Made by a program: the position numbers and the translations under genes | DNA from: Flavobacterium ginsengisoli | GTDB lineage: Bacteria > Bacteroidota > Bacteroidia > Flavobacteriales > Flavobacteriaceae | NCBI RefSeq assembly: GCF_029625315.1 | Contig: NZ_CP121110.1 | Location: 1,975,501-2,039,500, forward strand | Reading direction: 5' to 3' | DNA length: 64,000 nucleotides | Shown: one piece after another, positions 451-59,517 of the stretch | Layout of the letters: each line of letters opens with the position of its first letter | Position numbering within the stretch: the first letter of the stretch is position 1 | The notes under the pieces: model-generated | The model's database searches: none | The model's input: only the letters and a program-made list of their open reading frames with translations | What the model was told of the DNA's origin: nothing

Positions 451-797
451 ATGAAAACAAATAATATAGAAGGTCTTACGCCATTTGAAATAAATCTTTT
501 AATTCAGCAAGGAGGAAAGTTTATCATTTTTCCATTTATTATTTCTAAAATGGTAAAAAGGATTAAAGAAACTAATATCTATTTTATTCGACCAAATGAA
601 AGTACATTCAAATATGCTATTAAACACTTTTTTTGAATTTATCGCTAAGCTTGCGCATTTTTCCTTTGGCTCCAATTTATATTATAATGTCATTTTTTTA
701 TTTAATGAAAGGCGGAAAAGATTATACAGAAACTATGTTAGAAGATTTAAACACCAATAGCCCAATTTACAAGCCTCAATCTAAATTATCATACTAA
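451..797 (+). CDS. Small protein of unknown family (about 114 aa), reading frame broken twice
   Basis: The first 61 codons (451-633) read openly to a TGA directly after a run of seven T (628-634). The tail homologous to the fragment at 3-149 is in another frame and ends at 797. Two single-base insertions explain this: one extra T in the T run, and one extra base in GCTTGC at 649-654. Corrected, the joint reads KHFF-EFIAKL-RIFPLAP and gives one protein of about 114 aa. The conserved tail is FPLxPxY, a hydrophobic helix, GGKDYT and DLN. The family is unknown to me. A programmed -1 shift at the T run would also reach the tail, but it gives a less natural joint and does not explain the GCTTGC. 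Confidence 0.5.
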
Positions 798-820
798 TAA
801 AGTCTCAAAAAAAAAACTTA

Positions 821-856
821 AAATCATCTCATTTTTTTATGAGATGATTTTTTTTC
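821..856 (+). terminator. Intrinsic terminator
   Basis: A 12-bp perfect stem, AAATCATCTCAT (821-832) with ATGAGATGATTT (839-850), is followed by a T run. It sits 24 nt after the stop at 797. Confidence 0.8.
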
Positions 857-981
857 AAATTCATACAAAAACCAATTCTAATAAAGATCTAAAAATCAAT
901 AGTTTTAATTTAAAAACATGAAATACATAAGATTTTATCCTTATTTTAGCTTCTGTTATTTTCACCTAAAAACTCAACTTT

Positions 982-1404
982 ATGGAAGATTCAAACGAGT
1001 TAGTACAAAAACAAAGCTGGCTAAACCGAAACTGGAAATGGCTTATTCCTAGCGGATGTTTAACTCTTTTAGTATTAGTCGCTTTATTTATTGGAGGAGT
1101 TTTCTATGAAGTAACTTCAGTACTTAAAGATTCTGAAGCTTATAAAGAATCTATGATAGCCGTAGAAAATAACAAACTTGTAGTTGAAAAACTCGGATCT
1201 CCTGTAGAAACAGACGGAATGGTTTCTGGAACTGTGACTTCGCATAATAACATACGAACTTGCGATGTACAAGTTCCACTTAAAGGTCCAAAAGGCAAAG
1301 GAACTTTATTTGTTGTAGGCGAAAAAAGAGGTACATGGAAATACAGCGAAATGTCGGTCTACATTGAGAAAACAAATGAGAAAATTGATCTTTTGAAAAA
1401 GTAA
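982..1404 (+). CDS. Coa1-like (cytochrome oxidase assembly factor Coa1 family) membrane protein
   Basis: 140 aa. A positively charged N-terminus (NRNWKW) precedes one transmembrane helix at about residues 23-46. The soluble domain then carries the Coa1/Tim21-type pattern: a GSPVETDG segment near residues 72-79, then PLKGPKGKGTLFVVGEKR and GTWKYSEMSVYIE. In mitochondria Coa1 helps assemble cytochrome oxidase; the role of bacterial members is not established, so only membrane anchoring and the fold are claimed. The lipoprotein gene starts 4 nt after the stop, so the two are probably co-transcribed. Confidence 0.65.
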   Translation: MEDSNELVQKQSWLNRNWKWLIPSGCLTLLVLVALFIGGVFYEVTSVLKDSEAYKESMIAVENNKLVVEKLGSPVETDGMVSGTVTSHNNIRTCDVQVPLKGPKGKGTLFVVGEKRGTWKYSEMSVYIEKTNEKIDLLKK

Positions 1405-1408
1405 TTTT

Positions 1409-1846
1409 ATGGAGAAATATTTTTTCCTTTTGTTTTTAGTCTGTTTTATTTCATGCAATAAAATTGAAACTCAATCAAGCTTAAATAAAAAAGATCTAAA
1501 TTTTATAAAAAGTTTGAATCTACTTGACAAAGACGAAACTATCTACAAATTTTATAGTGAAAACACCAAAGAAACAGCTGGTAACTTTTTCACTAATAAA
1601 AGAGTTGCCTCTTACTGGATTGATAAACGAAAAATGGAAAGAAATGAAGTAGTTTTTGCATTTTATAATGATATTATAAAAATTGACACAGTAAATTATG
1701 CAGGTGTAACTTATTGTCCTTATGCGCTTATTACAAAAAAGGACAAAAGTACATTTAAAGTTAGTGTTGATGGAAAAAAAACAGAAGTAAAATCTTTTTT
1801 TGAAGATTTGCTTTTCCAATGGAAAAAGAACTCAAAAAATATTTAA
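1409..1846 (+). CDS. Putative lipoprotein, unknown function
   Basis: 145 aa. A hydrophobic signal of about 16 residues ends in the lipobox FISC, so the mature protein should begin at Cys16 and be lipid-anchored. The rest is lysine-rich and soluble with no domain I recognise. It follows the Coa1-like gene by 4 nt, so an operon is likely. Confidence 0.6.
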   Translation: MEKYFFLLFLVCFISCNKIETQSSLNKKDLNFIKSLNLLDKDETIYKFYSENTKETAGNFFTNKRVASYWIDKRKMERNEVVFAFYNDIIKIDTVNYAGVTYCPYALITKKDKSTFKVSVDGKKTEVKSFFEDLLFQWKKNSKNI

Positions 1847-1972: not shown

Positions 1973-1993
1973 AAACTTAAATAAAACCCCATA

Positions 1994-2811: not shown

Positions 2812-3667
2812 ATGCAAAAAATAACGATACTTATTCACTGCAAAGATCAAAAAGGAATTATTGCTTGCAGTGACTACTTTTATTGCTAAGGTAGAAGGAA
2901 ACATTACCTACATTGACCAGCATGTCGATGTAGAGCAAAATGTATTTTTCATGCGTTTAGAATGTGAATTTACCAATCAGAGCAGTAATATTGACCACAT
3001 AAAAGAAAAATTCAGCAAGACTATTGCTGCCGATTTCAATATGTCTTGGGATTTGTACAATCAGGAACAAAAACCTAAAATGGCTTTGTTTGTTTCTAAA
3101 TATGATCATTGTTTATTTGACATTTTAGGCCGTTACAGCGCAGATGAATTAGGAGTCGAAATTCCTATGATTATAAGCAATCATAATGATTTACGTTCAA
3201 TTGCAGAGCGTTTTGATATTCCGTTTCACTATGTTCCTTTTACAAAAGACAATAAAGAAGAAGGTGAAGCTAGACAGATAGAACTTTTAAAAAGATATCA
3301 AATCAATTTTATCGTTTTGGCGCGTTACATGCAGATTGTTACTCCAAAAGTGATTTCGCTTTACGAAAATAAAATTATTAATATCCACCATTCGTTCTTA
3401 CCAGCTTTTCCAGGTGCAAAACCTTATCATTCGGCTTTTAAACGCGGTGTAAAAATTATTGGTGCAACAAGCCACTACGTAACAGAAGAATTGGATGAAG
3501 GTCCGATTATCGAACAAGATATCGCAAGAGTTTCTCATATTCACTCTGTAGAAGATTTTATCATGAAAGGTCGTGATTTGGAACGCATTGTTTTAGCAAG
3601 AGCTATTAAATTGCATGCCGAAAGAAAAACTATGGTTTATAGCAATAAAACTGTTGTTTTTTCTTAA
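2812..3667 (+). CDS. purU: Formyltetrahydrofolate deformylase, one frameshift near the 5' end
   Basis: Hydrolyses 10-formyl-THF to formate and THF, supplying formate for purine synthesis and balancing one-carbon pools. The natural start is ATG at 2812 (MQKITILIHC, an ACT-type N-terminus). That frame stops after 25 codons because GCTTGC at 2863-2868 carries one extra base; without it the joint reads GIIVAVTTFIAK and a 284-aa protein results, the usual length. The formyltransferase domain fills residues 85-280, with the catalytic NIHHSFLPAFPGAKPY segment and the Asp in LDEGPII. The remainder is intact, so a sequence error is likelier than gene loss. Confidence 0.85.
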
Positions 3668-5330: not shown

Positions 5331-5345
5331 AATTGTTGGTGTGTG

Positions 5346-5568: not shown

Positions 5569-6391
5569 CTAAGACTTAGAATCAATAATCTCAGCCATTT
5601 CCTGCTGTACTTTCAAAGCTTCTTCTCTAGCCTTCTCTGCAAAATCGGTTCCTTTTGAAGCGTAGATGATAGCTCTTGCCGAATTTACCAAAAGTCCCAC
5701 TTTATCATTCATTCCGTATTTGCATACTTCGGATAAACTTCCGCCTTGAGCGCCAATTCCGGGAACCAATAAGAAACTGTCTGGAACAATTTTTCTAATT
5801 TCTGCAAAATATTCTGCTTTTGTTGCACCAACAACATACATTAAATTTCCGCTGTTTTTCCAAGTTTTAGAAGTCTCTAAAACTTTTTTGTACAATTCTT
5901 TTCCACCAGTATCTAAAGTCTGAAAATCGAAAGCGCCTTCGTTAGACGTTAAAGCCAACATAATAGTATGTTTATTTTCGAATGCTAGAAAAGGCTCAAT
6001 AGAATCTTTGCCCATATATGGAGCAACCGTTACACTATCAAAATTTAGATCTTCAAAAAAAGCTTTTGCATACATGCTAGAAGTATTTCCTATATCTCCG
6101 CGTTTTGCATCTGCAATCGTAAAAATATCAGGATAATTTTCGTTGATATAATTGATTGTTTTTTGCAAAGACATCCAGCCTTTTATTCCATATGCTTCAA
6201 AAAAAGCTGTATTTGGTTTGTATCCAACGGTTAAATCGTGAGTTGCATCGATTATAGCTTTATTAAACTCAAAAATAGGATCTTCTGTTTCTAATAAATG
6301 CTTGCGGTATTTTTGTCAAATCAGGATCTAAGCCAACGCATAAAAATGATTTTTTTTGAAGAATTTGTTCGTGTAGTTGTTGTGTTGTCAT
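5569..6391 (-). CDS. pyrF: Orotidine 5'-phosphate decarboxylase, one frameshift
   Basis: Decarboxylates OMP to UMP, the last step of pyrimidine synthesis. The start is the ATG at 6391 ([20 protein letters not shown]). The frame breaks at GCTTGC 6300-6305 (GCAAGC on the coding strand); removing one base gives [14 protein letters not shown] and a 273-aa protein of normal length for the long PyrF class. The catalytic segment [12 protein letters not shown], with the Asp-Lys-Asp group, is intact, as are the VGATKAEY and VPGIGAQGG loops. The break is likely a sequence error. Confidence 0.88.
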
Positions 6392-13563: not shown

Positions 13564-14896
13564 CTACCTATAATCCTGATAAATCGGTAATTTCAAACCT
13601 GCGTAAATGTTACAGCCTTTTGAAGTGTTTGAAAACAGATTGGTAAATAGAGTTCCAGAACCAATAAATAATGGACCTGCTCTAAAACCAGCTCCTATTT
13701 GCGTTCCGCTGTATTGCATATACGTTACAGGAACATAAAAGCTAAATTGTCTTGTTTCGTATCTTGGCGAAAAAGTTACCGAATTGGCAATTGCAGTTCC
13801 GTTTACTTTTTTGGCATCTACTAAACTGAAATCCCCACTTAAATTCAAATAAAATCTTTGATTGATATTCCAATCAAAATTGGTGTGCAAAGCCGTTGGT
13901 AAATTTGCTTTCACTCCTTTTCTAGAAGATATTTTAGTATAGTTAGCGTCAAAAAATTCAAAAATATCATCTGCATCCTCAATATCTTGCTTGCGTTACT
14001 CTTCCTGTTATATTATAAGTATTCTCTACAATATTTTTATAGTTTAGTTTTCCAATATCGGTTATAGAAGCTGCTGCTTTAAACTTATATCGGTTTCCTG
14101 CGCAAGAATGACAATTTGTACGATATTCATAAGTAAAACCTAAATCTACTCCTACTCCTGCCGATCCCATATCAAACTTTGGATCATTTCCGTTGGCATA
14201 ATCATAACTCGCCGCTGTTTTTATTGTTCCTGTCGAATAATATTCGCTCAACGAAGGATTTGCTTCATTTTTAGTAAAAGCTACGTTCAAATCATTTCCG
14301 TTAATATAACCGTTTACGCCCGCCATTAAGTATTTTAAAGTAATTCCGCCTTTTACAAAATGATCATCACGATCGAACAAAACCGTCGCATAACTCGCTC
14401 CAATTTCAGCCCAAGAATTCGAAACACCATTCGGATTTCCGCCTGCAATTAAAAAATTATCAGAAGCATTTACATCTTTATTAACCTCATCAATAAGCTG
14501 TCCGTTTATGCCAACTAGATTTGTAACACTACGCACACGCGTAAAAAGTGCAACGCTATGCAAAGGCGTAATATTAAACATAACAGACGGCCCCATAATA
14601 TCAGCATTAAAATTCCCCCTATTATTCGATTTGAAATTCCTGCTCGCTTGAGTATCCAGATCGTAACCGCCGTCTAATATATTGGCAAAATTAACTCCGT
14701 ATAAATCATTTTGCCCAGTTCCGCTTACAGATACAAACGTAACGTCGGCTTTATACTTCGAATCCACAATATTAGAAGGATTAAACAATGCCGACTGAAT
14801 TCCAGCAAAATTATCATCTCTAAATCCGAAATACGATTGCGATCGCGCATAAAAAAAGCTTCCAAAGAAGCAAAATAGAAGTAAAGTTCTCTTCAT
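13564..14896 (-). CDS. DUF5723-type outer-membrane protein, one frameshift
   Basis: About 443 aa when joined. The signal peptide ends YARSQS; next comes FGFRDDNFAGIQSALFNPSN, typical of DUF5723/PorV-like barrel proteins, then many beta strands and a glycine-rich C-terminal barrel region ending KLPIYQDYR. The frame breaks at GCTTGC 13989-13994 (GCAAGC on the coding strand); without one base the joint reads GRVTQ-QDIEDADDIFEF. Both halves are otherwise open. Its role is unknown; the family is restricted to Bacteroidota. Confidence 0.72.
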
Positions 14897-17760: not shown

Positions 17761-17777
17761 TGTTCATTTTTTGAACA
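17761..17777. promoter_or_regulatory. Inverted repeat in the prfA / 18019 divergent region
   Basis: TGTTCA (17761-17766), TTTTT, TGAACA (17772-17777) is a perfect 6-bp palindrome, 57 nt upstream of the prfA start. It could be an operator or part of the neighbouring repeat; no further evidence. Confidence 0.3.
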
Positions 17778-17816
17778 TTTTAAGTTGAATATTTAGTGGA
17801 ATTGTAATGATTTTTA

Positions 17817-17937
17817 GGAGCTGCTTCCTGCTATCCGCTATATCTTTTTAGGCTGAAGGTTTACGGTTTAATAAGCTCTTTTTCGTTTGCCTAAAAAGGA
17901 TGCCGCTTCTATCAGGGCTAAGGCTTTGGTTTTCATA
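17817..17937. repeat. Intergenic hairpin element of about 120 bp
   Basis: GGAGCTGCTTCCTGCTATCCG begins one side and GGATGCCGCTTCTATCAGGGC the other. ATCTTTTTAGGC near 17842 pairs with GCCTAAAAAGGAT near 17889. From memory, similar "CCTGCTATCCGCT...CTATCAGGGC" elements are common between genes in Flavobacterium. Only one copy is seen here. It makes up most of the 314-bp gap 17705-18018. Confidence 0.55.
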
Positions 17938-18018
17938 ATTGTCTTTACGGTTTTCCGTAATGTATTTAGATTTTATGTTCTTAGTTTTGAAAACTAACTA
18001 ACAACCACAACTTAAAAA

Positions 18019-18558
18019 ATGAAAAAACTATTTGCTTTATTTTTATTGCTCTGTGCAATAACACAAATTTATTCTCAAGACAAGAATTCTAAAGCCCGAC
18101 AGTTTATCGAAAACGCAGAAATCATGCAAGTAAATAAAGATTGGAATAAAAAAGCCGAATTTACGACTGGATTAAAAGAGGTTTTAGTTTTCTTTCCTGT
18201 TGAAGCAATTGATTTAAAATCAAACAAAAAAATAAAAGCATTGCAAGTGGAAATGGCATTAGCCGAAAATTATTTTAAATCTTCTTGGATTGATTTGAAT
18301 GAAGTTGATGAATTTATATTATTTATTGAACAATATGTTATTCCCAATCTTAAAGACAAAACTCAAAAAAACCAATCAACCACATATATATTTAATTCTA
18401 AAGAAATAACATTTAGTTTTCATATTCAAAATACTTCTAGAAGAATCTCAATATATCTTAAAGATAATGGCATTACAGATTATAGACGTTATTTCTGGAC
18501 AGAAACGCAAGTAGGTAAAATTCCTGAATTGCTTATAATGCTGAAGGAAATTAAATAA
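18019..18558 (+). CDS. Secreted protein, unknown function
   Basis: 179 aa with a signal peptide ending in QIYSQD. The mature part is mixed alpha/beta and charged, with NSKEITFSFHIQNTSRRISIYLKDN near the C-terminus. I recognise no domain. The next gene starts 14 nt downstream, so the two likely form an operon of exported proteins. Confidence 0.6.
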   Translation: MKKLFALFLLLCAITQIYSQDKNSKARQFIENAEIMQVNKDWNKKAEFTTGLKEVLVFFPVEAIDLKSNKKIKALQVEMALAENYFKSSWIDLNEVDEFILFIEQYVIPNLKDKTQKNQSTTYIFNSKEITFSFHIQNTSRRISIYLKDNGITDYRRYFWTETQVGKIPELLIMLKEIK

Positions 18559-18572
18559 TTAAAAAAAGGTTT

Positions 18573-19325
18573 ATGAAATATTTTCTATTCATAATTTTAA
18601 TTGGAATCAATTTAAATGCACAAGATTGTCCGACGAGAATTGGCGACTTTGAGATAAATTCTACAAAAACTTCTGATCTAGAATGGATATTACCTTCATA
18701 TTCGTCATATATGACAATAATAGAAGACTTAAACGAATATCAAAATAATGTAGTTAATTATGAAGATCTCAATGAAAAATACTCAGGAGGAACATTAGCT
18801 TATAGATTAAAACCAGACTATAATAATGTAAAAAGTTGGTATAATCTAGAAGTTGCCTCAGTAAATGATTCTACAGAAGTAATATTCATTCCAAGTTACG
18901 AAACTAACAATATTGTTATTAAAAATGTTTTACTCAAATTTTATAATGATAAATTATATTTTATAAGGGCAAGCTTAAATAAAAATTATACTGATATTAT
19001 TCTTGAAAAATATAAAGGAAAGGGATTTAAGTCGGAAGAAAAGAAAACCCCGAATGCTTGCAAAAATGTAAAATTCAAAAAATATTTGAATACATTGTCT
19101 CAATATTTTTTTGCTTCTGAAGAAAATAAAATTCGAGCAATGTTAACTTTTGATTTTAAAATCAATAAATATTGTGAAAATGTAATTAATGATAGAATAG
19201 AAATATTTGACTTTGACATTTACATTAGAGAAAATAAAAAAATTCAATTCAATATGGAAAACATGCAAATGATGGAAGATGATAGAAAAAAACTTGAAAA
19301 GGAAGAAAAACTTAAAAGATTTTAA
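18573..19325 (+). CDS. Secreted protein, unknown function
   Basis: 250 aa. The signal peptide ends in LNAQD, followed by CPTRIGDFEINSTKTSDLEW. The C-terminus is a charged helix (MMEDDRKKLEKEEKLKRF). Very AT-rich with many Asn, Lys and Ile codons, more so than the flanking core genes. It contains a GCTTGC word (19056-19061) that does not break the frame (PNACKNVK). No domain recognised. Confidence 0.6.
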   Translation: MKYFLFIILIGINLNAQDCPTRIGDFEINSTKTSDLEWILPSYSSYMTIIEDLNEYQNNVVNYEDLNEKYSGGTLAYRLKPDYNNVKSWYNLEVASVNDSTEVIFIPSYETNNIVIKNVLLKFYNDKLYFIRASLNKNYTDIILEKYKGKGFKSEEKKTPNACKNVKFKKYLNTLSQYFFASEENKIRAMLTFDFKINKYCENVINDRIEIFDFDIYIRENKKIQFNMENMQMMEDDRKKLEKEEKLKRF

Positions 19326-19384
19326 AATGTCTCTTATAGACCCGATAGCAGATTTCTAAACAAGACTATAAACTTTTTATATAA

Positions 19385-19792
19385 ATGATAAAAACATCTG
19401 ATAAACCATCACACGAAGATATTTATCAAAAAATATCTTCTCTTTTTAATATCAAGTTCAAATCACAATTAAAGGATAGTCCAATTGTCTTTGATAATTT
19501 TTTACAAATAAAAAATGTTGTTTTAGGGAATGAGTATTATGTAGTTCTATTTGAAACTGGAAATGAAATTCTTAAATTTAAAAACAGAGAAGAATTCATA
19601 GATAACTTTATCAGTTTTATTGATGTAAAAATTATAGAACTGAATAATGAATTTGAAGATTTACAAAAGTTTGAAAGAATGTCAATGGGAATTAAATATG
19701 ATGAAAATGAAGTTTATATGCGCCATGAATTTATTGGGCACGGAACTATAAAATTGAATCAAATTCGAAATAAATTATTAAGCTTAAAATAA
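19385..19792 (+). CDS. Cytoplasmic orphan protein
   Basis: 135 aa with no signal peptide. It is mixed alpha/beta, with FDNFLQIKNVVLGNEYYVVLFETGNE in the middle and a C-terminal helix pair. The nuclease-like gene starts 34 nt downstream, so they may be functionally linked. No family recognised. Confidence 0.55.
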   Translation: MIKTSDKPSHEDIYQKISSLFNIKFKSQLKDSPIVFDNFLQIKNVVLGNEYYVVLFETGNEILKFKNREEFIDNFISFIDVKIIELNNEFEDLQKFERMSMGIKYDENEVYMRHEFIGHGTIKLNQIRNKLLSLK

Positions 19793-19826
19793 AAACATTT
19801 TTTTTCCTACTACAAACCGCTAACTA

Positions 19827-20972
19827 ATGGAAGAATTTAAAGAAATCAAAAGCATAATTAATCTTACAAAATCTAGAATCGATGCACATCTAAAATTCAA
19901 GCAAGAATACGATAAGCAACTAGCATTTGACTTTAGTTTGTTTCAGTTTTTTTCTATGGGAGAAAATAAGATTACCCAAATTTTAGCTTATTTCTTAGAT
20001 GAAAAACAAAATCATGGGCAAGGCAATATTTTTTTAAATGAATTTATTAAAACATTCTGCAACAAAGAAGTTGATATCCTTAATTCTATAAATATCTGTG
20101 AAAAAATAATTACTAACAATCGAAGAATAGATCTTTATATAGAAGTTGATGATTTAATTATTGCCATAGAAAATAAAATCTGGGCTGACGACCAAACAAA
20201 TCAATTAAGAGACTATGCTAACTTTTTAGAAAATAAATCAAAGGGTAATTATTTATTGTTTTATCTAAATCCTTATGGCTTAGAGCCATCATCCAAAAGC
20301 ATGGATGATAGTTGCAGAAATAAATTAATTGAACAACAAAAACTTAAAGTAATTAGTTACAAATATGATATTGTAAATTTAATTAATAGCTGGTTGCTTA
20401 TTTGCGAGGCAGATAATGTTTCTCATTTCTTAAAAGAATTCAAAAAATATATTGAAATAAAATTCCTTGGTAAAAATACTCTAAATATGTCAAAAGAATT
20501 AAGAAGCATTATTTATGACAATGAACGTGAAGTTCGAGAATTGGTTAATGAATATAAGCAAATTGAAAATGAAGTAATAAATACACTAAATAATATAGGC
20601 AAAGAATTAGGTAAAATTAATACTGAATTACCTTTAGGAGTCACTTTAACCAAAAGTGGGGTATTCAATTGGGAAGGGGCACGTGTATATAAGTTTTCGG
20701 TCTCAAAAAATGGAAATAAAATTTGGATTCAATTTGTAAAAGAAAACATTCATCTTTATTCAAATTATTATTTACAAGAAGGAACTGACATGATTTTCAA
20801 GGAAATTCTAACAGAATTAAATATAAACAATCACGTCAGCCTCAATTATAAATTACCAAAATCTGAATTAATAAATATTTTTCTAAACCAGGTTAAAATT
20901 GCAATTCAGAGTTTTGATATTTATGATGTCCGAATGGAAAATTCTACAGATTTAAACAATGATAATGTTTAA
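19827..20972 (+). CDS. PD-(D/E)XK nuclease superfamily protein (PDDEXK_4-like)
   Basis: 381 aa. The N-terminal half matches PD-(D/E)XK families: MGENKITQILAYFLD near residue 48, then RRIDLYIEVDDLIIAIENKIWA near residues 107-128, where the Asp of RID and the Glu-x-Lys of IENK form the expected metal-binding set, then DQTNQLRDYANFL and the LLFYLNPYG strand. The C-terminal 180 residues are an alpha/beta region of unknown fold that could sense or bind a partner. Such proteins often occur in defence islands, but a function in this locus is not shown. Confidence 0.75.
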   Translation: MEEFKEIKSIINLTKSRIDAHLKFKQEYDKQLAFDFSLFQFFSMGENKITQILAYFLDEKQNHGQGNIFLNEFIKTFCNKEVDILNSINICEKIITNNRRIDLYIEVDDLIIAIENKIWADDQTNQLRDYANFLENKSKGNYLLFYLNPYGLEPSSKSMDDSCRNKLIEQQKLKVISYKYDIVNLINSWLLICEADNVSHFLKEFKKYIEIKFLGKNTLNMSKELRSIIYDNEREVRELVNEYKQIENEVINTLNNIGKELGKINTELPLGVTLTKSGVFNWEGARVYKFSVSKNGNKIWIQFVKENIHLYSNYYLQEGTDMIFKEILTELNINNHVSLNYKLPKSELINIFLNQVKIAIQSFDIYDVRMENSTDLNNDNV

Positions 20973-21000
20973 TTTCGTTTAATACTGAAATAAAAAACTA

Positions 21001-21096
21001 CCCCGCTAGCGCGAGCGCCTCTTCCGCTCGTGTCTGCAAAGTTTTTAAAATTGATTTAGATTGCGTTCACGAGCGGGACGCTCGCGCCAGCAGAGG
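21001..21096. repeat. REP-like GC-rich palindrome
   Basis: CCCCGCTAGCGCGAGCGCC (21001 on) and the inverted GGACGCTCGCGCCAGCAGAGG (to 21096), with CCGCTCGTG and CACGAGCGG inside, form arms of about 30 nt around a 35-nt AT-rich centre. Its GC content is far above its surroundings. It resembles REP-type elements of Flavobacterium genomes. Only one copy is in this window. Confidence 0.75.
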
Positions 21097-21185
21097 ATAA
21101 CACGAATGTAATAGCTAAATACAAAATCAATAGAATTTGCATTTTAAGGCTAAAGTAACTTATAATATGTTAAAAAAATTAAAAT

Positions 21186-21833: not shown

Positions 21834-21857
21834 AAAATCCGATAGCGCGGATTTTTG
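21833..21857 (+). terminator. Intrinsic terminator overlapping the preceding stop codon
   Basis: AAAAATCCG, ATAGCG, CGGATTTTT form a short strong hairpin; the stem begins at the TGA of the gene ending at 21833. Confidence 0.75.
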
Positions 21858-21940
21858 TATTAATTTTTAAATCCCCATACTGCTTTGAGTATCCTGCTCC
21901 TAGCAACTATCAAGCTAAAATCAAAAAATAATTCACGCTA

Positions 21941-30884: not shown

Positions 30885-32382
30885 TTAGAATGAACTTACA
30901 AAAGTCGCAGAAGCATCTTTTAAATTCTTCCATTTCTCATTTGCGTAATCTACATCATCTACGGCTATTTGAAGAGTAGGACTATTAGATTTAAAAGTTC
31001 CATAAGTAAATTTTACATTACTTCCATTTTTCAAATTTAATGTACTTAAGAGATTATTGTCACAAAACAAATAATCACTACCTATAGTTGCAATTAGAGG
31101 ATTATTAGAAAGATCTAAAGTAGCAATCTTATTATAAGAAATGCTTAAGCCTATTAATTTTGAATTTTTGCTCACATCTAAACTTGTTAGCATATTATTT
31201 CCACAAGTTATTCTCACTAACTCACTACATTTACTGATATTGATTGAAGTTAATTTATTATACGAACACGAAATACCAGTTAAAGCAGTATTCGTGGTCA
31301 GATCTAAAGATGTTAAAGCATTTTCATGACACATTAAATCTTTTAAAGCTGTATTTTTAGTAAGATCCAAAGTAGTTAACTGGTTGTTATTAACCCATAA
31401 AACTTCTAAAGCTGTATTTCTAGAGATATCTAAGCTTCTTAATTTACCATCATTAGCATATAAATTTGTCAATGCTGTGTTTTTATAAAGGTCTATAGAA
31501 GTTATACTAACTCCAAATGATAGCTGTGTTAATGCTATATTTTTGGTAACGTCTAAGGTACTGAGAGGATTTCTGTCACAATATAATACCTTCAAAGCTT
31601 TATTATTAGAAACATCTATATTAGTTATTAAATTAGAACTAAACTCGCAGACTTTCTAAAGCAGTATTTTTAGAGATATCTAAAACAGCTATCTTATTAA
31701 ATGAAACATCAAGGAATTTTAATGCTGTGTTTTTCGACACATCTATTGAGGTTAGTTTTATAACCGAAGTACCATATATATTAGAACATGAGAAACGTTC
31801 CAAAGCTTTGAAATCCTGAAGTCCTGTTAAATCCGCTACACCAGAATCATTTAAATTTAAATTCTTAACTGATACAATTTTATACGTTGGGACACTTCCG
31901 TTAACAGGACCAGCATCATATCCTAATTTTATAAGTATCTCTTCAAATTTAGCATCTGGTATAAATGTCAAAGTCGTATCATCACCAGTCAAAATAATTG
32001 GTATATGAATTGTTTTACCAGCTTCAACAACAATCTGAGTAGTTTTACTTGCATGTAACGGAAAAGAAGCAACAAGAACAACATTGCCAGGAGGAATATT
32101 TTCGAAGACAAAAGTTCCATCAGTTCCAACAACTGTATTTATATCTTCCCTCTCTGTTTGTTTTAAAATTATTGTAGCGCCAGCAAGAATCGCATTATCA
32201 TCTTTTACCGTTCCTGTAACTGTACCAATAGCCTTATCTGGTAATGTTGGCGCAGTAGAAGTATCATCATCTTTACTGCATGACGAAAATAAAAAGGTTA
32301 AAGCAAAAAATAAGAATAAAATTTTCTTTGCTTTTTTTAACTCCAAAAATTCAATGATAAAATAGGTCTTCATAAAATTCAT
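30885..32382 (-). CDS. Leucine-rich-repeat lipoprotein, one frameshift
   Basis: About 498 aa joined. The signal ends in the lipobox LFSSC, followed by an Asp-rich linker, a carboxypeptidase-regulatory-like domain (about residues 50-135; GTVTGTVKDDNAILAGATI) and then about fourteen repeats of 21 residues of the form SKNTALxxLxCxxNxLTxLD, an LRR pattern. The frame breaks near 31645 (an extra base in a GAGTTTAG stretch, exact position ambiguous); both sides keep the repeat. Probably a surface-exposed adhesion or binding protein. Confidence 0.7.
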
Positions 32383-32605: not shown

Positions 32606-34917
32606 ATGAAGGTCTGTATTGCTGAGAAACCAAGTGTAGCACGTGAAATCGCATCTGTTTTGGGCGCTAATACCAAACATGACGGATATTATGAAGGCAA
32701 TGGCTACGCCGTGACTTACACTTTTGGGCATTTATGCACCTTAAAAGAACCCAACGATTATAAACCCCACTGGAAAAGCTGGGATTTAAACAATCTGCCG
32801 ATGCTTCCTGAAAAGTTTGAAACCAAAGTCGTTCAAAATTCTGGAATTCAAAAACAGTTTAAGATCATTAAAAGTCTTTTTGAGAAAGCCGACGTGGTTA
32901 TAAACTGCGGGGATGCTGGACAAGAAGGAGAATTGATTCAGCGTTGGGTAATGAACGAAGCACATTACAAAGGTGAAATTCAGCGATTATGGATTTCATC
33001 TCTTACTACAGAAGCGATTAAAGAAGGTTTTGAAAACTTAAAACCCTCTTCGAATTACGATAATTTATTTTATGCTGGATTTTCTAGAGCTATTGGAGAT
33101 TGGCTTTTAGGAATGAATGCTACACGTTTGTACACCGTAAAACATGGTGGCTACAAACAAGTTTTGTCTATCGGACGCGTACAGACACCAACATTGGCAA
33201 TGGTTGTAGAGCGTTTTAGAGAAATCGAAAACTTTAAACCTCAGCCGTATTGGGAATTGCAGACTTTGTATAGAGAAACACTTTTTAGTTATGAAGAAGG
33301 CCGTTTTCTAAACCAAGAAGATGGACAAATTATAGCAAGCAAAAGTCAAGGAAAGTGATTTCGAAATTGTTTCTGTTGAGAAAAAGAACGGAAACGAATA
33401 TGCTCCAAAACTTTTCGATTTAACAGGTTTGCAGGTATATTGCAATCAAAAATTTGGCTTTTCGGCCGAAGAAACATTGAAAATTGCACAGACTTTATAT
33501 GAACAAAAAGTAATTACGTATCCCAGAGTTGATACGACTTTTTTACCAGGAGACATTTATCCGAAAGTACCTGGAATTCTCCAGAAATTAACCAATTATG
33601 CTGAATTGACTCAGCCTATTTTGGAGAAAAAAATCAAAAAATCGCCAAAGGTTTTCAATGATAAAAAAGTAACCGATCACCATGCGATTATTCCAACTGG
33701 AATTCAGAACAATTTACCGCATAATCAACAGCAGGTTTACGATATTATTACGCGACGTTTTATTGCTGTTTTTTATGATGATTGTTTGGTTGCAAATACG
33801 ACAGTAATTGGAAAAGCTGCCGATGTGACTTTTAAAGCAACTGGAAAAGAAATCTTGAAAAAAGGTTTCCGTGTTGTTTTTGAAGACCCGAATGCGAAGG
33901 AAAAAGAACCCGATTTATTGCCGAGTTTTACTGTGGGCGAAAAAGGTCCTCATGAACCTTCGTTTCTTCAAAAAGAAACCAAACCACCTAATCAATTTAC
34001 TGAAGCGACTTTACTGCGCGCTATGGAAACTGCAGGAAAACAGGTTGATGATGAAGATTTACGTGAATTGATGAAAGAAAACGGAATCGGTCGCCCGTCA
34101 ACTCGAGCGAATATTATCGAAACGCTTTTCAAACGTCAATATATCGTTAGAAACAAAAAGCAAGTTTTACCAACTTTAACTGGAATTCAGTTGATCGATA
34201 CTATTCAGAACGAATTGGTAAAATCAGCCGAGCTTACCGGAACTTGGGAAAAGCAATTGAAAGATATTGAAAAAGGAACTTTTACCGCTGCTGCATTCAT
34301 TAGAAACATGAAACGCATGGTTGAAGCTTTAGTCTACGAAGTGCGAAGCGAGACCAAACATGCTAATATTTCGCATGCTTGCAATGATTCAAAAACCTGT
34401 TGTAAAAGCCGAAAAAGAGAAGAAAAAATCCTCTGGAATTTCAGCAGAAACTTGTCCGAAATGCCAAAAAGGAAACCTGATTAAAGGAAAATCTGCTTTT
34501 GGATGCAGCGAATATAAAGCAGGTTGTGACTTTGTATTGCCTTTTGTTTTTCAAGATAAAAAAATCACCGAAAGCCAATATTTACGATTGGTTCAAAAAG
34601 GTTCAACAGTAAACATTAAAGGTTTCAAAACCGAATCTGGAACTGTTGAAGGTTTAATTCGTTTTGAAGAAAACTACAAACTGAAATTAGAACCAAAGAA
34701 AACAGATAAAAAAGCAGAACCGAAAGAAAGTTCCGATGCTTTAATGTGTCCTAAATGCAAAAAGGGAACTATTCTAAAAGGCAAAACAGCTTATGGCTGT
34801 GCCGAATATAAATCAGGTTGCGATTTTAAAGTTACTTTTGATGAAGTGCGTGCAAAACTAGAAAACCAAAAACCTACTAAGGAATTGGTTTATTCTATCT
34901 TGAGCGCTAGCGTTTGA
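32606..34917 (+). CDS. topB: DNA topoisomerase III, two frameshifts
   Basis: 769 aa when joined. It relaxes negatively supercoiled DNA and resolves recombination intermediates. The N-terminal TOPRIM domain has EKPSVAREIASVLG and NCGDAGQEGELI; the catalytic Tyr is in VITYPRVDTTF. The C-terminus has two zinc-ribbon repeats (CPKCQKGNLIKGKSAFGC and CPKCKKGTILKGKTAYGC). The frame breaks at GCAAGC 33335-33340 (corrected IIATKVKESDFEIV) and at GCTTGC 34377-34382 (corrected NISHVAMIQKPVVKA), each by one extra base. All three pieces match a single protein. Confidence 0.9.
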
Positions 34918-37044: not shown

Positions 37045-38206
37045 TTATTCATTCTCCCCGATCTTATTCACCATAAAAATCATTAGAATTCCAAGAAGCG
37101 CCATAATAAGAAATGCCCATTTCATACTTAGATATTCGGAAATAAAACCAACCATTGGCGGAACCAGCAAAAATCCTAAATAACCAATTGTTGATATTGA
37201 AGTTAAGGCAGAACCACTACTTAAATTTGAAGATCTTCCAGCAATGCTAAACACTAGCGGAACTACACAAGAAACCCCAAATCCGATTAAAACGTAACCG
37301 AAAATAGTTGGGTAAGCATAAGGCAAAATAAAACAAAGTCCAAAACCAGCTGTTATTAATATTCCGCTGTAAAGCAGGATTTTTTTAGTTCCAAATTTCA
37401 TTACACCATAATCCCCAAAAATACGTCCTAACGTAACTGCAGAAGCGAAAAATACAAATGCGGCGCTGGTTAATTTTGGAGAAGCTTTTAATATGTTTTC
37501 GAAATAAATTCCACTCCAATCGTACATGGTGTTTTCGCAAGCCATAGAAACAAAGCAAATCAGTGAAAATTTTACTAGATTTTTTTCTGGCATCGAGAAA
37601 AACTTCTTCTTAACCGGAACAGGTTCGTTGTGAATACTCATTGGGTAAAAACAAGCCGTAAGCGCAAGCATAAAAATACTCACTCCCAATAAATGATGTG
37701 ACGGTGCAATGTGCTGTGTTACCATTACATACCCCAATCCTGCTCCCGAAAAAACAGCAATACTCCAAACAGCATGAAAACGTGTTATAATAGACTTTGG
37801 ATACAATTTCTGGACTTCCAGAGACTGCGCATTTATAGATAAATTGAAAATATTACGAGAAGCTCCAAAAAATAAAAGTATAATTACCAACTGCCAGACA
37901 AATGCTTGCCAAACCTGGCAAAGAAAGCGCAACATTAAACATAACCGCACCAAGAAGCATTATATAACGGCTGCTGTATTTATTCAATAATTTTCCTGTA
38001 AAAGGCATTGTTAGCATTAAACCGATCGGAAAAGCAAATAAAACCGCTCCAAATTCGGCTTCAGACAAATGCAATTGGGCTTGTATATGTGGAATTCTTG
38101 AAACCCAAGAAGAGTAGCCGAAACCTGAGAGAAAGAAAAAAACAGTGTTGGCAATACGATATCCTCTAGGCGTATTTTGAATCTTTTTAAAGAATGGTAA
38201 AATCAT
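37045..38206 (-). CDS. MFS transporter, one frameshift
   Basis: About 386 aa with twelve predicted helices when joined. The N-terminus contains GFGYSSWVSRIPHIQAQL and a LNKYSSRYIMLLG loop, typical of MFS sugar-type permeases (FucP-like or YbjJ-like). The frame breaks at GCTTGC 37904-37909 (GCAAGC on the coding strand); corrected it reads LPGLATFVWQLVIILLF. The substrate is unknown. Confidence 0.8.
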
Positions 38207-40814: not shown

Positions 40815-41946
40815 ATGACTTTTAAAAAGCTACTATTAAAAATACATTTATGGCTAGGTTTATCATCAGGACTTATCGTAGTTATACTAGGAATTACAGG
40901 CTGTTTATACGTTTTTGAAGAAGAACTGCGTCCTATAATTCATGACTATTATTATGTTGATCAGGTTAAAGATAAAAAACTGCCTATTAGCCATTTAATA
41001 AAGATTGCGCAAGAAGCAAACAAAAAGATCCATCCAAAGCAGACATTTTCTGGATGCAGGACATTTAGTGATGATCGACGTACTATTGTTGCTTGGTTTT
41101 ATGAAGAATTGGACAATGATGCGATCTGGTATTGGAATCAGTATCAGACAAACTATGTTTACTTAGATCCCTACACAGGAAATGTTACAAAAATAGAAGA
41201 CTATAATTTTGAGTTTTTTGTTTTTGTACGAATGCTTGCATCAAACACTTTGCTTAAACAGTAAAATTGGCGATCCTATTACAGGTACAGCAACCATTAT
41301 ATTCATAATTTCCTTAATTACAGGTTTAATTCTATGGTGGCCTAAAAATAAAAGTGCGGCAAAACAACGCTTTTGGTTTCAATGGAAAAACACTACAAAA
41401 TGGAAACGTAAAAACTACGATTTGCATAATATTCTAGGATTTTACATGATGATTTTCACTTTGATCATTGCCTTAACCGGATTAGTATGGGCTTTTGAAT
41501 GCTACGATAAAGGAATTCAATGGTTATTTAATGGCGGAAAAACATTTGCCAAAGAAGAAAGAATCGTTTCTGATACTACAAAATATACTCCAATCAGTGC
41601 TACTGATAAGATATATAATGCTACTCTAAAAGCACATCCTAAAGCCATAAGCTACTTTTTATTTACACCTGCAGAAAATGATTCTTTGGCGACTGTTCAA
41701 ACATTTATTCGATACGAAAATCGTTTTGATGATACATCAATGTTATTTGACCAATACAGCGGAAAGAATCTTAAAGTTACCACTTATAAAGACAAAAATA
41801 ATGGCGAGAAATTCAGATTTATAAATTACGATCTGCATGTTGGAAGTATTCTCGGATTTCCAGGAAAAGTTCTTGCTTTTTTTGCCAGTCTAGTTGCTCG
41901 CAAGTTTACCTCTAACCGGCTTCTTAATTTGGTGGGGACGAAATAA
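40815..41946 (+). CDS. PepSY-associated TM protein, one frameshift
   Basis: About 376 aa joined. The N-terminal helix (LLLKIHLWLGLSSGLIVVILG, followed by ITGCLYVFEEEL) is the PepSY_TM signature, then three more helices. The frame breaks at GCTTGC 41234-41239; corrected it reads VRMLHQTLCLNSKIGDPITGT. The His-rich conserved pieces HLWLG, MLHQTL and KNYDLHNILGFYMM are present. PepSY_TM proteins near TonB siderophore receptors often act as ferric-chelate reductases, so this may release iron in the periplasm. Confidence 0.82.
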
Positions 41947-52251: not shown

Positions 52252-52252
52252 T

Positions 52253-53209: not shown

Positions 53210-55843
53210 TTATCGATTTAAGTAAAGACGGCCTTGTTGTGGCGGTTTATTGTCTTTATTAAAATGCGACACATAAAAATAAACTCCATTGGGTGCAACG
53301 CCTCCAGCGATACCGCTTTTCTCGTAATTCTTGCCATCCCAAGCTGGTTTACTATTATCTCCTTTATACATTCCGTTGCCGTACCTGTTATAAATTTCAA
53401 GTGTATAGTTTGGATATAAAAATTCAATATCTTTTATCACAAATGAATCGTTTACACCGTCTCCGTTTGGAGAAAATCCGTCAGGAACAAAGAAATCGTA
53501 CTGAGCAACTTCACAATCTCGTAAAGAGACTTTCACTTCTTTATAATTTTCAGATAGACATCTTGTTGTTTCATTTAAATCGTATCCGTAATAAATTGCA
53601 TTGTGCACCAATAATGTGGTTGAAGGCAATAAATTTCCGTCTACAGAATCATACCAAGCTACCGTTGACGGAACATTTGTCTTACTGGATAAATCGCTTA
53701 TTTTCGGATTTGCTAAACCGCAAAAATCTGCCGTTTCGTTCATTTCTGGTGCTGGCGTATCATTTATCACTACCGAAACTTTTGCGGGTTCTGAAATACA
53801 ACCTTCAGCAGAGGTTTCTGTAACGTAATAATCTTCTGTTTTTAAAACATAATCAACGGCGAGTGGCGTTGTTGCTGTTGCAGAATTATACCATTTGTAC
53901 TGAGTTCCTTTTGGTTCTAAATTGGCAATTACCGCCTCGTCTACTTTACAAAAGTTCTGATCTAAAACAGTTGGTGCAGGCGGAATCGGATTTATAATGA
54001 AATCGTCTGTAATGTTGATTAAATCGACATCACAATTTGTAACCGTATTAGTTAAATTCAATAATGTAATTTTTGTTGAACCTGTATTTAAAAGCAATTC
54101 GGCAGGAATTACAAAATCTAACTTACCATTTTGCACTGTATTACTAATAGTCTGTATTCCCGAAATATTACTTTCTGACAATTGATAAGAAATACTAACA
54201 TTGGTTAAAGTTTCCAACCCAGAAATTTCAACAGTAACAGGTGCATTCAAGCAATAATCTTTAACTGCCGCAATTACAGTTAATGCATTTGGCAACGGAT
54301 TTACATATAGATTTCCTGCAACATTTGCTGTATTGGTACATTGTGGTGAAGGATTTGTAATATTGGTTATATTATAAATTGTAATTACCGACAATCCGCT
54401 TCTTTTACTCAGGTTTCCCGAATTGTAAAAGATGCTTTTCCGCCAACAGATTGTATTTCTGCTGTTTCGCCCATAGCTAGATTATCTCCATTTATATTGT
54501 AAGAAATACGATAAGTACCATCAAGCAATTGAGGTGCAATAATATCAATTGTCGCTATATCATTTTGGCAAACAGGAAGCGCTGTTAGCGTAGCATTAGT
54601 TAAAAGCGGTAACGGATAAATTGTTAAAACACTCGAAAACGGATTGAAAATGTCTACGCATTTTCTTCTACTTGTTGTAGACACTATACCTGTAACCGTT
54701 ATCGTATACTCACCTACTTCTTTAAAATAAGATGATTGTATTGGAAAATTAAATTCTCCATTCACAAAATCCCCTCTTACATTATCAGATGCTGATACTC
54801 CTGGCCCAACAATAGTAAAGCTTACATCATATTTCCCATTAGGAATATTATCTTGCCCTTGGGTAATTTTTGCCGAATAAGTCGCTGTCGCAATTTCAGA
54901 TTCGCAAATATCTTTGCTTACTTCAATTTTAGATCCTGTAAAATCAAGTCTTTTTTCGAGAGTTATATTTACAGTAGCACTTTTATTAGCACATATATTA
55001 CTATTAGGAAGCGCCAAAACAGTGTAGGTATAAGGGTATACGCCAGGTCCATTTGCATCAAACAATTCTTGAAGATTAATGTTATGATCTGTAGCAGAAG
55101 TCAATCCCATACCTGTCCAAGTACCTCCTTTATCCCCTTCACCTATCCGGTCAAATAAATCTAAATCGGTGTAGGCCGCCAAATCTGTAGTCCCGCATAA
55201 TTCCAAATCTTGTGGTTCTCCAATTTTAGGAGCTATAAAAATAGTCACCTGCACATTGGTTGACTTTGTATCAGGAGAACACGCCAGCACTGCCGGTACA
55301 GTATATATAAAGTTAAGCGTAGTTTTGGTTGTATATTGTCCAATTGGTATTGTACGCGGTACAGGCTGCCCTTTATCGGTAGTAAAACTTCCGTTTACAT
55401 GTGGCCCCATAACCTTACTGTCAAAAGCTGTAAAAAGATTAAAAAAATTATTTTCGTTACAAACTGTTGCTTCAGATCCCACGCCCACGTATGCGCCTAT
55501 GGTAATCGTGACTACAGCTTTGTTATTTGTACACCCCGAAGTCGCTGGAGCTGTATAGGTATAGTGATATTCTCCTCCGCTAAGGATAAATTGAGCATTT
55601 AAAATACCAGTAGAAGGATCTAAACCTTGTAGATTATTATCATCTGTCCATGTTCCACCTGGAATTGGAGAACCTCCTAACAAAGAAAATAAATTTACTG
55701 ATTGATAAATGGGATTAGTGACATCGCAAATTAATTCATTTACATTGTCAGTACCAGCACATTGTGCCGTTAGTTTTGAAGGAATTAAGGAAAAAAATAA
55801 AAAACAATACAAAATGTAGGTAGTTAATGTAGTTTTTTGCCAT
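53210..55843 (-). CDS. Large type IX substrate with type B (gliding-motility) sorting domain; two frameshifts
   Basis: About 877 aa joined. The probable start is ATG at 55843 with one extra A in an A run before the signal (LTAQC), although TTG at 55812 also works. A second break is near 54408 in an A run (FTIRE-NLSKRSG). The body is a series of Ig-like, immunoglobulin-type domains typical of adhesins, ending in the gliding-motility C-terminal domain: FVPDGFSPNGDGVNDSF, YNRYGNGMYKG and VYFYVSHF. The C-terminal domain targets it for type IX secretion, probably with the PorP/SprF next door. Confidence 0.85.
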
Positions 55844-55993: not shown

Positions 55994-57320
55994 TTACAAC
56001 TCATCTTCTAATTTAAACCTAAATTTAAGCACCAAACTATTTCGTTCTACCTCAAGATTAATCCATACATCATCTTCAGATTTCAAAAGATTATTTATTT
56101 GTTGAAGAGTGTATTTATATGGCTGATTTTTATTGATACTAACTATAATATCACCTTTTCGTAATCCACATTTTTCAGCAACGAGAATTCTCACGCACAT
56201 TTACTATTTCGTAAACTGGCTTAAGAGCAAATTTATACTTGAAGTTATTTTCGTTTTTGTCTTTTTCTTGCAATTCATCCATTGTAGAAGCAACTCTTAC
56301 AGTCTCTAAATGTACTGTTTCTTGCACCCATTGAAGTCCGTTGTGCTGAATCGTAATTCCGCTCTTATTATAAGTAAAAGGTTCTCCAAATTTGCTGTTT
56401 CTTTTTAAGTACAGTTTTTTTTCTTTATAATCTAAAACTAAGGTAAATCGTTTCAAAACTTCTCCACCAACAGAACCGATACGTCCTGGAACCATCTTAA
56501 CGTTACGAATTGATGCAGAATCAGGAAAAGAGACAATAGGTTTTTTAAAATCAAATTCGTCTATAGAGAATTTATCAATTTTAGCGCGATGTCCTTCAAT
56601 GTCACCGCTAAAACCTTTTCCTAAAAAATCAGGAAAGTTTTTGTTCGGGAGTTTTATTTTATCATTTTCAAAAATCCAGAAAGCATCACTATTTCCAATA
56701 TCAATTAAAAGCTTTGCCGGAATTTCTTGATCATTAACTGTAGCTTTTGTAATTATATAAGGTTTTGACTTTTCAACCGTTATCGGAACCATTTTAAACT
56801 GTTTATCAAGTTTTCCCTGATATCTATCGCTCTTAGCATGAACTATTATTTTCTTTTTCTGGTAATTAATTTCAACAAGATTGTTTCTAAAGAATTTATG
56901 ACCGATAATTCCATTAACAGGAATTCCAATATGAGAAGACAAATTAAAACTTTGATCTAGGATAATAAAAACCATATGGTCACTTGATTTCAGACCATGC
57001 GTTTCTAGAATATTCTTTGTCGATTTCAAGCCTTCTATCTCTTCTTCGCTTCCTAATCCACGGAGTTTGATTTTCTCAACATTGTTAAAACTAACTTCTT
57101 GTTTATCTTCCATACTAAACAAAAGTGTTTCTTCAACACCAGAATCAAGAAGAAAATTCAACTCTACTCCATTCACTTTTATAGGAATAAAAACGAGGTT
57201 ATTAATCAATTTAAAAGGGATCGTAGCCTTTGTTGCATTGTTTTCCAATATGAAATCGCCTTGTCCAAAAAGCAAAAAAGGTAAGAATAACCCAAAAAAC
57301 AATACTATATATTTTTTCAT
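55994..57320 (-). CDS. Retropepsin-like aspartyl protease with PDZ domain; one frameshift
   Basis: About 441 aa joined, from ATG at 57320. The signal ends LFGQGD. Two aspartic-protease lobes are visible: NFLLDSGVEETLLFSMED (DSG) near residue 60 and AKLLIDIGNSDAFWIF (DIG in place of DSG/DTG) near 200. A PDZ domain follows. The frame breaks at GCAACG 56178-56183: one extra base separates VNVRENS-VAEKCGLRKGDIIVSIN. Probably a periplasmic protease or a binding protein of this fold. Confidence 0.78.
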
Positions 57321-57443
57321 TGACAATATTTTATTATAAAATTAGTAAATATATTTATTATTGTTACATTTTTGGAAGTACCCTTATTGTTTACGTTAAA
57401 TTCGAAAAAAATATGCAAATTTGCACTTCAATAATTTATACTC

Positions 57444-58640
57444 ATGCCGACAATTTCACTCAAGGGAAGAAACATGCCCGAATCTCCGATACGCAAGCTG
57501 GCTCCTTTTGCTGATTTAGCAAAGAAAAAGGGACACAAGGTGTATCACTTAAACATTGGTCAACCGGATATCAAGACACCGGAAGTGGCCATCGAGGCGG
57601 TAAAAAATATTGATTTGAGTATTATAGAATACAGTCCGTCTGCCGGATATGAAAGCTATAGAAAAAAATTAGCTCATTTTTACCAGCGCCAAAATGTAAA
57701 CGTTAACACAGAAGACATCATTGTAACAACTGGTGGCTCTGAAGCCTTACTTTTTGCACTGGCCACAATTACAGATCCAGGAGATGAAATCATTATCCCG
57801 GAACCTTTTTATGCTAATTATCATGCCTTTGCTTCTTCTACAAGTGCAACTGTAGTGCCTCTAGTTTCTACTATCGAAACTGGATTTGCTTTGCCAAGTA
57901 TTGATGAAGTAGAAAAATTAATAACACCAAAAACAAAAGCCATTCTGATTTGCAACCCTGGAAATCCGACTGGATATTTATATTCTGAAACAGAAATTAA
58001 ACAGCTTGCCAGCTTAATTAAAAAACATGATTTATACTTAATCGCTGATGAAGTATATCGTGAATTTTTATATGATGGCGACGATGTGCACTTTTCTGTA
58101 ATGAATCTTGAAGATGTACAGCAAAACGTAATCATGGTCGATTCTGTTTCTAAACGTTACAGTATGTGCGGAGCAAGAATTGGATGCTTGGTAACTAAAA
58201 ACAAAGATGTTTTGGCAACAGTAATGAAGTTTGCTCAAGCACGTTTAAGTCCGCCAACTATTGAACAGATTGCGTGTGAAGCCGCAATTGACACACCTCA
58301 AAGTTATTTTGACGAAGTAATCGGCGAATACAAAGAACGCCGTAACACTTTAATCGCTGAATTAAATAAAATTGATGGTGTTATTGTAACTAAACCAAAA
58401 GGTGCCTTTTATTGCATTGCAGAGCTTCCTATAAAAGATTCAGACGATTTTGCACAATGGTTACTTGAAAGTTATAACTTAAATGGCGAAACAGTAATGA
58501 TTGCTCCTGCTAAAGGTTTTTATTCGACACCTGGAATGGGACTAAATCAAGTTCGTATTGCCTATGTTTTAAACAAAAAAGATTTGATTACAGCCGTAAA
58601 CATTTTAAAGGAGGCTTTACTAGTTTACAACAACAGATAA
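57444..58640 (+). CDS. PLP-dependent aminotransferase, class I/II
   Basis: 398 aa. The PLP lysine is in VDSVSKRYSMCGARIG; substrate and cofactor residues include NIGQPDIKTPEVAI, TTGGSEALLF, CNPGNPTGYLYSE and IADEVYREFLYDG. The layout fits aspartate/aromatic-type aminotransferases. The exact substrate cannot be told. A terminator follows at 58662. Confidence 0.88.
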   Translation: MPTISLKGRNMPESPIRKLAPFADLAKKKGHKVYHLNIGQPDIKTPEVAIEAVKNIDLSIIEYSPSAGYESYRKKLAHFYQRQNVNVNTEDIIVTTGGSEALLFALATITDPGDEIIIPEPFYANYHAFASSTSATVVPLVSTIETGFALPSIDEVEKLITPKTKAILICNPGNPTGYLYSETEIKQLASLIKKHDLYLIADEVYREFLYDGDDVHFSVMNLEDVQQNVIMVDSVSKRYSMCGARIGCLVTKNKDVLATVMKFAQARLSPPTIEQIACEAAIDTPQSYFDEVIGEYKERRNTLIAELNKIDGVIVTKPKGAFYCIAELPIKDSDDFAQWLLESYNLNGETVMIAPAKGFYSTPGMGLNQVRIAYVLNKKDLITAVNILKEALLVYNNR

Positions 58641-58661
58641 TCAATTCATTATAATACAATT

Positions 58662-58700
58662 TAAAAAGACAATAACGTTTTTCGTTGTTGTCTTTTTTAT
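58662..58700 (+). terminator. Intrinsic terminator after the aminotransferase gene
   Basis: AAAAAGACAATAACG pairs with CGTTGTTGTCTTTTT (G-U pairs included), followed by T. Confidence 0.8.
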
Positions 58701-58844
58701 TTTTAATAATAGTATTTATCTTCAAATTTTAAATTATATCCAAAAAGCGACAATTAAATCCTAAAAACCATAGAATAGGTTTCCTATTTATTAATTATCT
58801 TTACCGCCTTAAAAAGATATACCACATTATAATAGTAGTTCTTA

Positions 58845-59517
58845 ATGATAAATAACGAAGATTTTTTAGACGAAATAGGTGACAGTCACTTCAGCAGTAA
58901 TGCAAAAAACCCTTTAAGAGAGGATGCTTTTGACATCACTGATGAAGAAAAAATAGAAAAAATTAAAAAAGATGTCGAAAGCATTCTACAAACATTAGGA
59001 ATGGATTTGACAGATGACAGCATTAAAGGAACTCCAAACCGAGTTGCAAAAATGTTTGTAAAAGAAATTTTTGGTGGTCTTAACCCAGCAAAACAGCCGA
59101 AAGCTTCTACTTTTGACAATAATTACAAATATGGCGAAATGCTTGTAGAAAAAAACATTACAGTTTATTCTACTTGCGAGCATCACTTACTGCCAATTAT
59201 CGGGCGTGCTCATGTTGCTTATATCTCAAGCGGACGCGTGATTGGTTTATCAAAAATGAACCGTATTGTTGAGTATTATGCAAAAAGACCTCAAGTACAA
59301 GAGCGTCTAACTATGCAGATTGTTCAAGAACTTCAAAAAGCTTTAGGAACAGAAGATGTTGCCTGTGTGATTGATGCAAAACACCTTTGCGTAAACTCTC
59401 GCGGAATTAAAGATATCGAAAGCAAGCACAGTAACTTCTGAGTTTGGTGGAAAATTCAAAGATCCTCAAACGAAAAGAGAATTCTTAGATTATATCAAAC
59501 TAGACACTCAATTCTAA
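58845..59517 (+). CDS. folE: GTP cyclohydrolase I, one frameshift near the 3' end
   Basis: 223 aa joined. It makes 7,8-dihydroneopterin triphosphate for folate and related pterins. The zinc and active-site motifs are present: VYSTCEHHLLPIIGRAHVAY, GLSKMNRIVEYYAKRPQVQE and ACVIDAKHLCVNSRGIK. The frame breaks at GCAAGC 59422-59427; corrected it reads IESNTVTSEFGGKF and ends DYIKLDTQF, the normal C-terminus. Without correction the last 30 residues are lost. Confidence 0.92.

Follow-up and report, generated by a model that had tools for sequence, protein, structure and literature searches.

Altered GCWGC words in a Flavobacterium ginsengisoli assembly as probable long-read errors at a putatively methylated motif

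Listeria genomes assembled from nanopore reads alone have been reported to be of low quality, with mismatches in the thousands; in four of these genomes the affected sites centre on GCAGC/GCTGC, and the authors name M.BatI as a known enzyme for this target (PMC10687267). M.BatI is a GCWGC 5-methylcytosine (m5C) methyltransferase that also half-methylates GCSGC (PMC8936443), M.Pin25611FIII of Prevotella intermedia was shown by bisulfite to be a GCWGC m5C enzyme (PMC5608340), Bacillus amyloliquefaciens H is listed with GCWGC (PMC8565308), and in Chloroflexi GCWGC carries N4-methylcytosine (m4C) (PMC6329791). A literature search covering main texts in part yielded no description of GCWGC errors as one-base insertions, and no Flavobacterium methylome appeared by title in the literature on Flavobacterium with GCWGC or with methylome/5-methylcytosine. 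Here, we analysed a window of 64,000 nucleotides of Flavobacterium ginsengisoli (G000:C1:1975501-2039500, from a genome of one 5.41-Mb contig), in which genes including topB, purU and folE are broken by an extra base in words such as GCTTGC and GCAAGC. Sequence comparison suggests, with a probability of about 0.93, that these frame breaks are uncorrected long-read consensus errors at methylated GCWGC, not real mutations.

Altered words in the window and across 552 kb

The window was compared with the sister strain Flavobacterium sp. IB48 (L001), which was found by scanning with part of topB, the best 80 of 514 matching stretches being kept, nearly all of them titled Flavobacterium. Judged from its SPAdes-style contig name, IB48 is probably a short-read assembly. 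Its identity to the window is 98.7% over 23168-44462, and the alignment covers 57,246 of the 64,000 window bases. The window contains 25 GCTTGC/GCAAGC words (14 and 11, respectively), so that the count of ten breaking and six non-breaking words in an earlier note on this DNA was too low; the words that it listed do lie at the positions it gave. Relative to IB48, eight of the 25 carry one extra base, 15 have the same length (13 letter-identical and two, at 30655 and 39360, with one substitution), and two, at 18969 and 19056, fall outside the alignment.

The eight extra-base words all interrupt genes whose IB48 frames are intact. GCTTGC stands for IB48 GCTGC in purU (2863..2868; 284 amino acids (aa) in IB48), pyrF (6300..6305; 273 aa), a DUF5723 gene (13989..13994; 443 aa), an MFS transporter gene (37904..37909; 386 aa) and a PepSY gene (41234..41239; 384 aa), and also at the second break in topB (34377..34382; 769 aa), while GCAAGC stands for GCAGC at the first topB break (33335..33340) and in folE (59422..59427; 223 aa). 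A ninth break, at 56178..56183 in an aspartyl-protease-domain gene that the earlier note called a PDZ protease, reads GCAACG (GCAAC plus one inserted base) where IB48 has GCAGC within a single frame of 441 aa. At all nine confirmed break sites, the underlying IB48 word is thus GCAGC or GCTGC, and not the GCAAC/GTTGC that the earlier note had taken as the motif. The other two of its eleven break sites failed, since IB48 agrees letter for letter at 649 and at 36671; near 649 the sole length change is a T-run at 634 that is one T shorter here, and no length change lies within 60 bases of 36671. Insertions that it had missed were found at 31651 (GCAGAC at 31647..31652 for IB48 GCAGC, within an IB48 frame of 498 aa) and at 41899 (GCTCGC at 41896..41901 for GCTGC, in the same PepSY gene as 41234), together with an untidy one-base insertion at 17673. 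Altogether, 59 IB48 GCWGC words aligned to the window, and 28 of them are intact here.

A wider sample was taken by comparing thirty 20-kb stretches of the F. ginsengisoli genome with thirty of IB48. As for the window, alignments were kept if they had at least 500 bases and 95% identity and shared no more than 50 bases with a longer one; 66, comprising 552,130 bases at 98.50% identity, remained. Words within about 10 bases of alignment ends were omitted from word counts, and the other-word classes leave out words near GCWGC. Among 742 IB48 GCWGC words, 368 are intact, 260 are substituted, 109 carry one extra base, one lacks a base and four are altered otherwise. Substitutions therefore outnumber insertions, which the earlier note had overlooked. 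Two separate genome regions agree on the extra-base rate (71/444 and 38/298). The comparison class, the remaining 5-mers in which four letters are G or C, has 19,118 of 21,495 words intact and 10.8% substituted. GCWGC columns, 3,590 of 551,759, hold 110 of 191 one-base insertions against an expectation of 1.24 (binomial log10 p = -185); 120 insertions lie within one base of GCWGC, 110 strictly inside it and 109 without another gap.

When oriented to GCAGC, the most frequent altered forms are GCGAC (113), GCGGC (48), GCAAGC (47), GCGAGC (30), GCAAC (26) and GCAGAC (23), and they are alike whichever strand bears GCAGC. In the first region (363 kb), insertions occur at 54 of 205 words followed by A, 12 of 127 followed by T, 3 of 54 followed by C and 2 of 58 followed by G. 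The earlier remark that A nearly always follows is thus partly right, since A follows 54 of the 71 insertions compared with 205 of the 444 sites overall.

These counts make it extremely improbable that GCAAC itself is the modified word, as the earlier note proposed. Among 919 IB48 GCAAC words, 860 are intact, 57 are substituted, two lack a base and none carries an extra base; GCAAC does not break more often than other 5-mers do, the very comparison by which that note had proposed to judge its motif. GCAAC does occur as an apparent miscalled form of GCAGC (26/742), which could explain why it was taken for the motif. GCSGC, in which 6 of 230 words have an extra base, was considered as a hemimethylated second target of the M.BatI kind and judged unlikely: in a count that skips 27 words near GCWGC, six of seven listed insertion examples carry the letters of a broken GCWGC, as they would if this strain has GCWGC there, and divergence would explain the signal.

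Where other relatives were compared, the altered forms occur in this assembly alone. The first set of relatives covers a part of the window with 21 IB48 GCWGC sites, 12 of them altered here. Of 410 comparisons made with other relatives at these 12 sites (alignments of at least 200 bases; some of nine loci, L082-L090, may repeat genomes already counted), none shows the form seen here, 97 show GCWGC and the remainder have other letters. The odd one out at the altered sites is the F. ginsengisoli assembly. Its whole genome contains 1,851 copies of GCTTGC and its complement in 5.41 Mb (342/Mb), against 1,454 in about 5.6 Mb (260/Mb) in IB48; the excess is 82/Mb, and the aligned sample predicts 87/Mb. 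Twelve other genomes of 3.5 to 5.7 Mb contain 607 to 1,483 copies (725 in the smallest, G010), none reaching 1,851. Reversed GCTTGC was a poor control, since codon use changes, and the sister strain was used in its place.

The window differs from IB48 in other respects as well. A stretch of 5.4 kb at 17774-23137 is without IB48 alignment and may be a strain-specific island; it encodes a protein of the PD-(D/E)XK nuclease family (PF14281) and one with DUF4365, alongside genes that could be assigned to no known family. The segment 29450-29956, with a gene at 29452-29931 (159 aa, no Pfam match), is absent at this place in IB48. In addition, short repeats differ in length: a GT run at 5338 is shorter than in IB48 by 10 bases, and direct repeats at 34955 and 35006 are shorter by 10 and 9 bases, respectively.

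Split genes and the origin of the extra bases

Of the 109 insertions in the wider sample, 96 fall in 80 IB48 open frames of at least 100 aa, 14 of which have more than one insertion. Frames of this size cover 85% of the compared IB48 sequence, which indicates that the insertions do not avoid genes. Ten of the 80 split frames, chosen by eye as likely housekeeping genes, were scanned and proved to encode DNA polymerase III alpha (DnaE; three insertions), biotin carboxylase AccC, GMP synthase (GuaA), MnmA, threonylcarbamoyl-AMP synthase, SucA, NuoF, FolE, topoisomerase III (two insertions) and UvrA (two). The DnaE match in the F. ginsengisoli genome is broken into three pieces; beyond these, only a homologue at 33-39% identity matches. 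A cell with DnaE so broken should not live. With DnaE, AccC, GuaA and others split, real mutation is very unlikely.

Real mutation would mean that GCWGC is a mutational hotspot in the strain or in part of the population, and the earlier note had kept true insertion in a mixed population as its second view. The events are indeed site-specific and private to this genome, and methylated cytosine is an established mutation hotspot. However, deamination of 5-methylcytosine yields C-to-T changes; it accounts neither for extra bases nor for GCGAC, the most frequent form (113/742). Moreover, the insertions split 80 open frames within 552 kb, DnaE three times, and the sister strain, which has the same two m5C methyltransferase genes (see below), keeps its GCWGC words intact, which is easier to reconcile with misreading than with a modification that causes mutations. 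We therefore give real mutation very little weight. The first view of the earlier note, that a modified base causes systematic miscalls at part of the sites, in genes that cannot all be truly broken, is supported.

Alternatively, the broken genes could be rescued at GCTTGC/GCAAGC by programmed frameshifting or by slippage at the RNA level, and conserved protein families do match both sides of the breaks, as in the topB pieces. Nevertheless, this is scarcely credible: GCAAGC (33335) and GCTTGC (34377) are both extra-base sites on one strand of topB and the altered forms do not differ between the two DNA strands, which points to the DNA level; 15 window words with the same letters are unchanged in length; and the form was found in none of the 410 comparisons with relatives.

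For the preferred reading, long-read errors at a methylated word, we propose that a cytosine of GCWGC is modified in this Flavobacterium and that the errors sit at GCWGC because of it. The modified base would shift the signal, so that the basecaller would misread GCAGC as GCGAC, GCGGC or GCAAC, or, with an extra base, as GCAAGC, GCGAGC or GCAGAC. Half of the GCWGC words would still be read intact, and without short-read polishing the errors would be left in. The platform was most likely Oxford Nanopore with a nanopore-only consensus, which both the losses of bases in long homopolymers (84, against 38 gains) and the single contig fit.

Candidate methyltransferases for GCWGC and CCGG

When GCWGC and homopolymers were masked, CCGG was the 4-mer that most often loses a base in the 552 kb, and a direct count, which skips five words near GCWGC, found this in 12 of 262. 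One such loss at an IB48 CCGG lies in the window at 54416..54420, and the missing base at 54420 had escaped the earlier note. The genome encodes two cytosine-5 methyltransferases (PF00145). The first, at 3,188,603, belongs to a pair at G000:C1 3,188,408-3,190,731 (L157:8408-10731), in which its gene overlaps by 4 bases the gene for an RE_HpaII endonuclease (PF09561, E 1.5e-93); the prototype of the HpaII endonuclease family recognises CCGG. The second is encoded on the minus strand at G000:C1 4,007,465-4,008,451 (match at 4,007,513), with PF00145 at 285 bits and TIGR00675 above its cut-off, and is convergent with a Vsr mismatch endonuclease gene that it overlaps by 4 bases (pair at G000:C1 4,007,049-4,008,451; L166:7049-8451). 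Taken as the same gene, the Vsr-side methyltransferase is present in all eight Flavobacterium genomes searched (profile positions 2-324, 281-288 bits). The nearest solved chains to both methyltransferases are M.HhaI, and PADLOC, NCBIfam and solved-structure searches named no specificity for them.

Two words are damaged and two m5C enzymes are encoded; as one enzyme is tied to CCGG, the Vsr-side enzyme is left for GCWGC and would most likely be its marker, and the weaker CCGG error would fit the HpaII-side enzyme. It is also possible, though we consider it rather unlikely, that GCWGC is modified by another enzyme or by a chemistry such as m4C rather than by plain Vsr-side 5-methylcytosine. The damage is heavy, and GCWGC is an m4C target in Chloroflexi, where the enzyme is 22.9% identical to its best REBASE hit (PMC6329791); so divergent an enzyme could escape family models. 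However, among the five Pfam classes of DNA methyltransferase searched (PF00145, PF01555, PF02384, PF07669 and PF02086), neither PF01555 nor PF02086 matches anything in this genome. The matches to PF02384 (27.8 and 22.1 bits; cut-off 20.4) and PF07669 (24.2 and 22.7 bits, the 24.2-bit match passing its cut-off together with its neighbours) are marginal, and the three proteins concerned were rejected as markers, being PrmC-type, AprA-type and TrmN-like (below the NCBIfam TrmN cut-off). Two damaged words also fit two m5C enzymes. GCWGC methylation in Flavobacterium is likely and would be ordinary biology, and a cytosine modification other than plain 5-methylcytosine or N4-methylcytosine, adding a base at one word in seven, is improbable.

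Several points tell against long-read errors at methylated GCWGC as the source of the frame breaks. Part of the 260 substituted GCWGC words must be true divergence, because 10.8% of comparable 5-mers are substituted too. The yardstick is a sister strain and not reads of the strain itself, and the platform is deduced. Modern basecallers are trained on some 5-methylcytosine, and plain 5-methylcytosine need not err so heavily. The frame of the HpaII-side methyltransferase itself has an extra base at a GCWGC (421 aa in IB48), and IB48 carries both methyltransferase genes, so that the inventory does not separate the strains. Finally, the Vsr-side enzyme, the most likely candidate, is named for GCWGC by elimination and not by proof.

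Consequences and comparison with known systems

About half of the IB48 GCWGC words in the 552 kb are altered in this public genome (368 of 742 intact), partly through true divergence. If the sample holds genome-wide, the 109 extra bases in 552 kb extrapolate to about a thousand false extra bases in 5.41 Mb, and any inference of pseudogenes, gene loss or frameshifting from this genome would be wrong. Completeness is scored at 95.5%, compared with 99-100% in five scored genomes of the same genus; 24 same-genus genomes range from 86 to 100%. The error pattern may also serve as a methylation readout without raw signal, as it names two marked words that would fit two cytosine-5 methyltransferases. 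Should the modification prove novel, error forms in public long-read assemblies could reveal unknown modifications and their enzymes.

Among described enzymes, M.Pin25611FIII and M.BatI would share the cytosine-5 class and the target proposed for the Flavobacterium enzyme, whose specificity is deduced, and the Prevotella host of the former belongs to the same phylum as Flavobacterium. M.BatI half-methylates GCSGC, whereas the GCSGC signal here would be explained by strain divergence. As in HpaII-type restriction-modification, an m5C methyltransferase gene overlaps an RE_HpaII gene, and CCGG as the second damaged word would be consistent with such a system. The closest parallel is Listeria monocytogenes ST87 (PMC10687267). 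In that study, the errors are described as mismatches and indels are said not to cause the low quality, whereas here 109 of 742 words have an extra base and genes break; that study also had matched short reads and amplified-DNA controls, whereas the comparison here is with a sister strain only. In both cases, however, the same pentanucleotide shows systematic, partial errors that survive assembly, and the Listeria authors tied theirs to the strain's own DNA modification.

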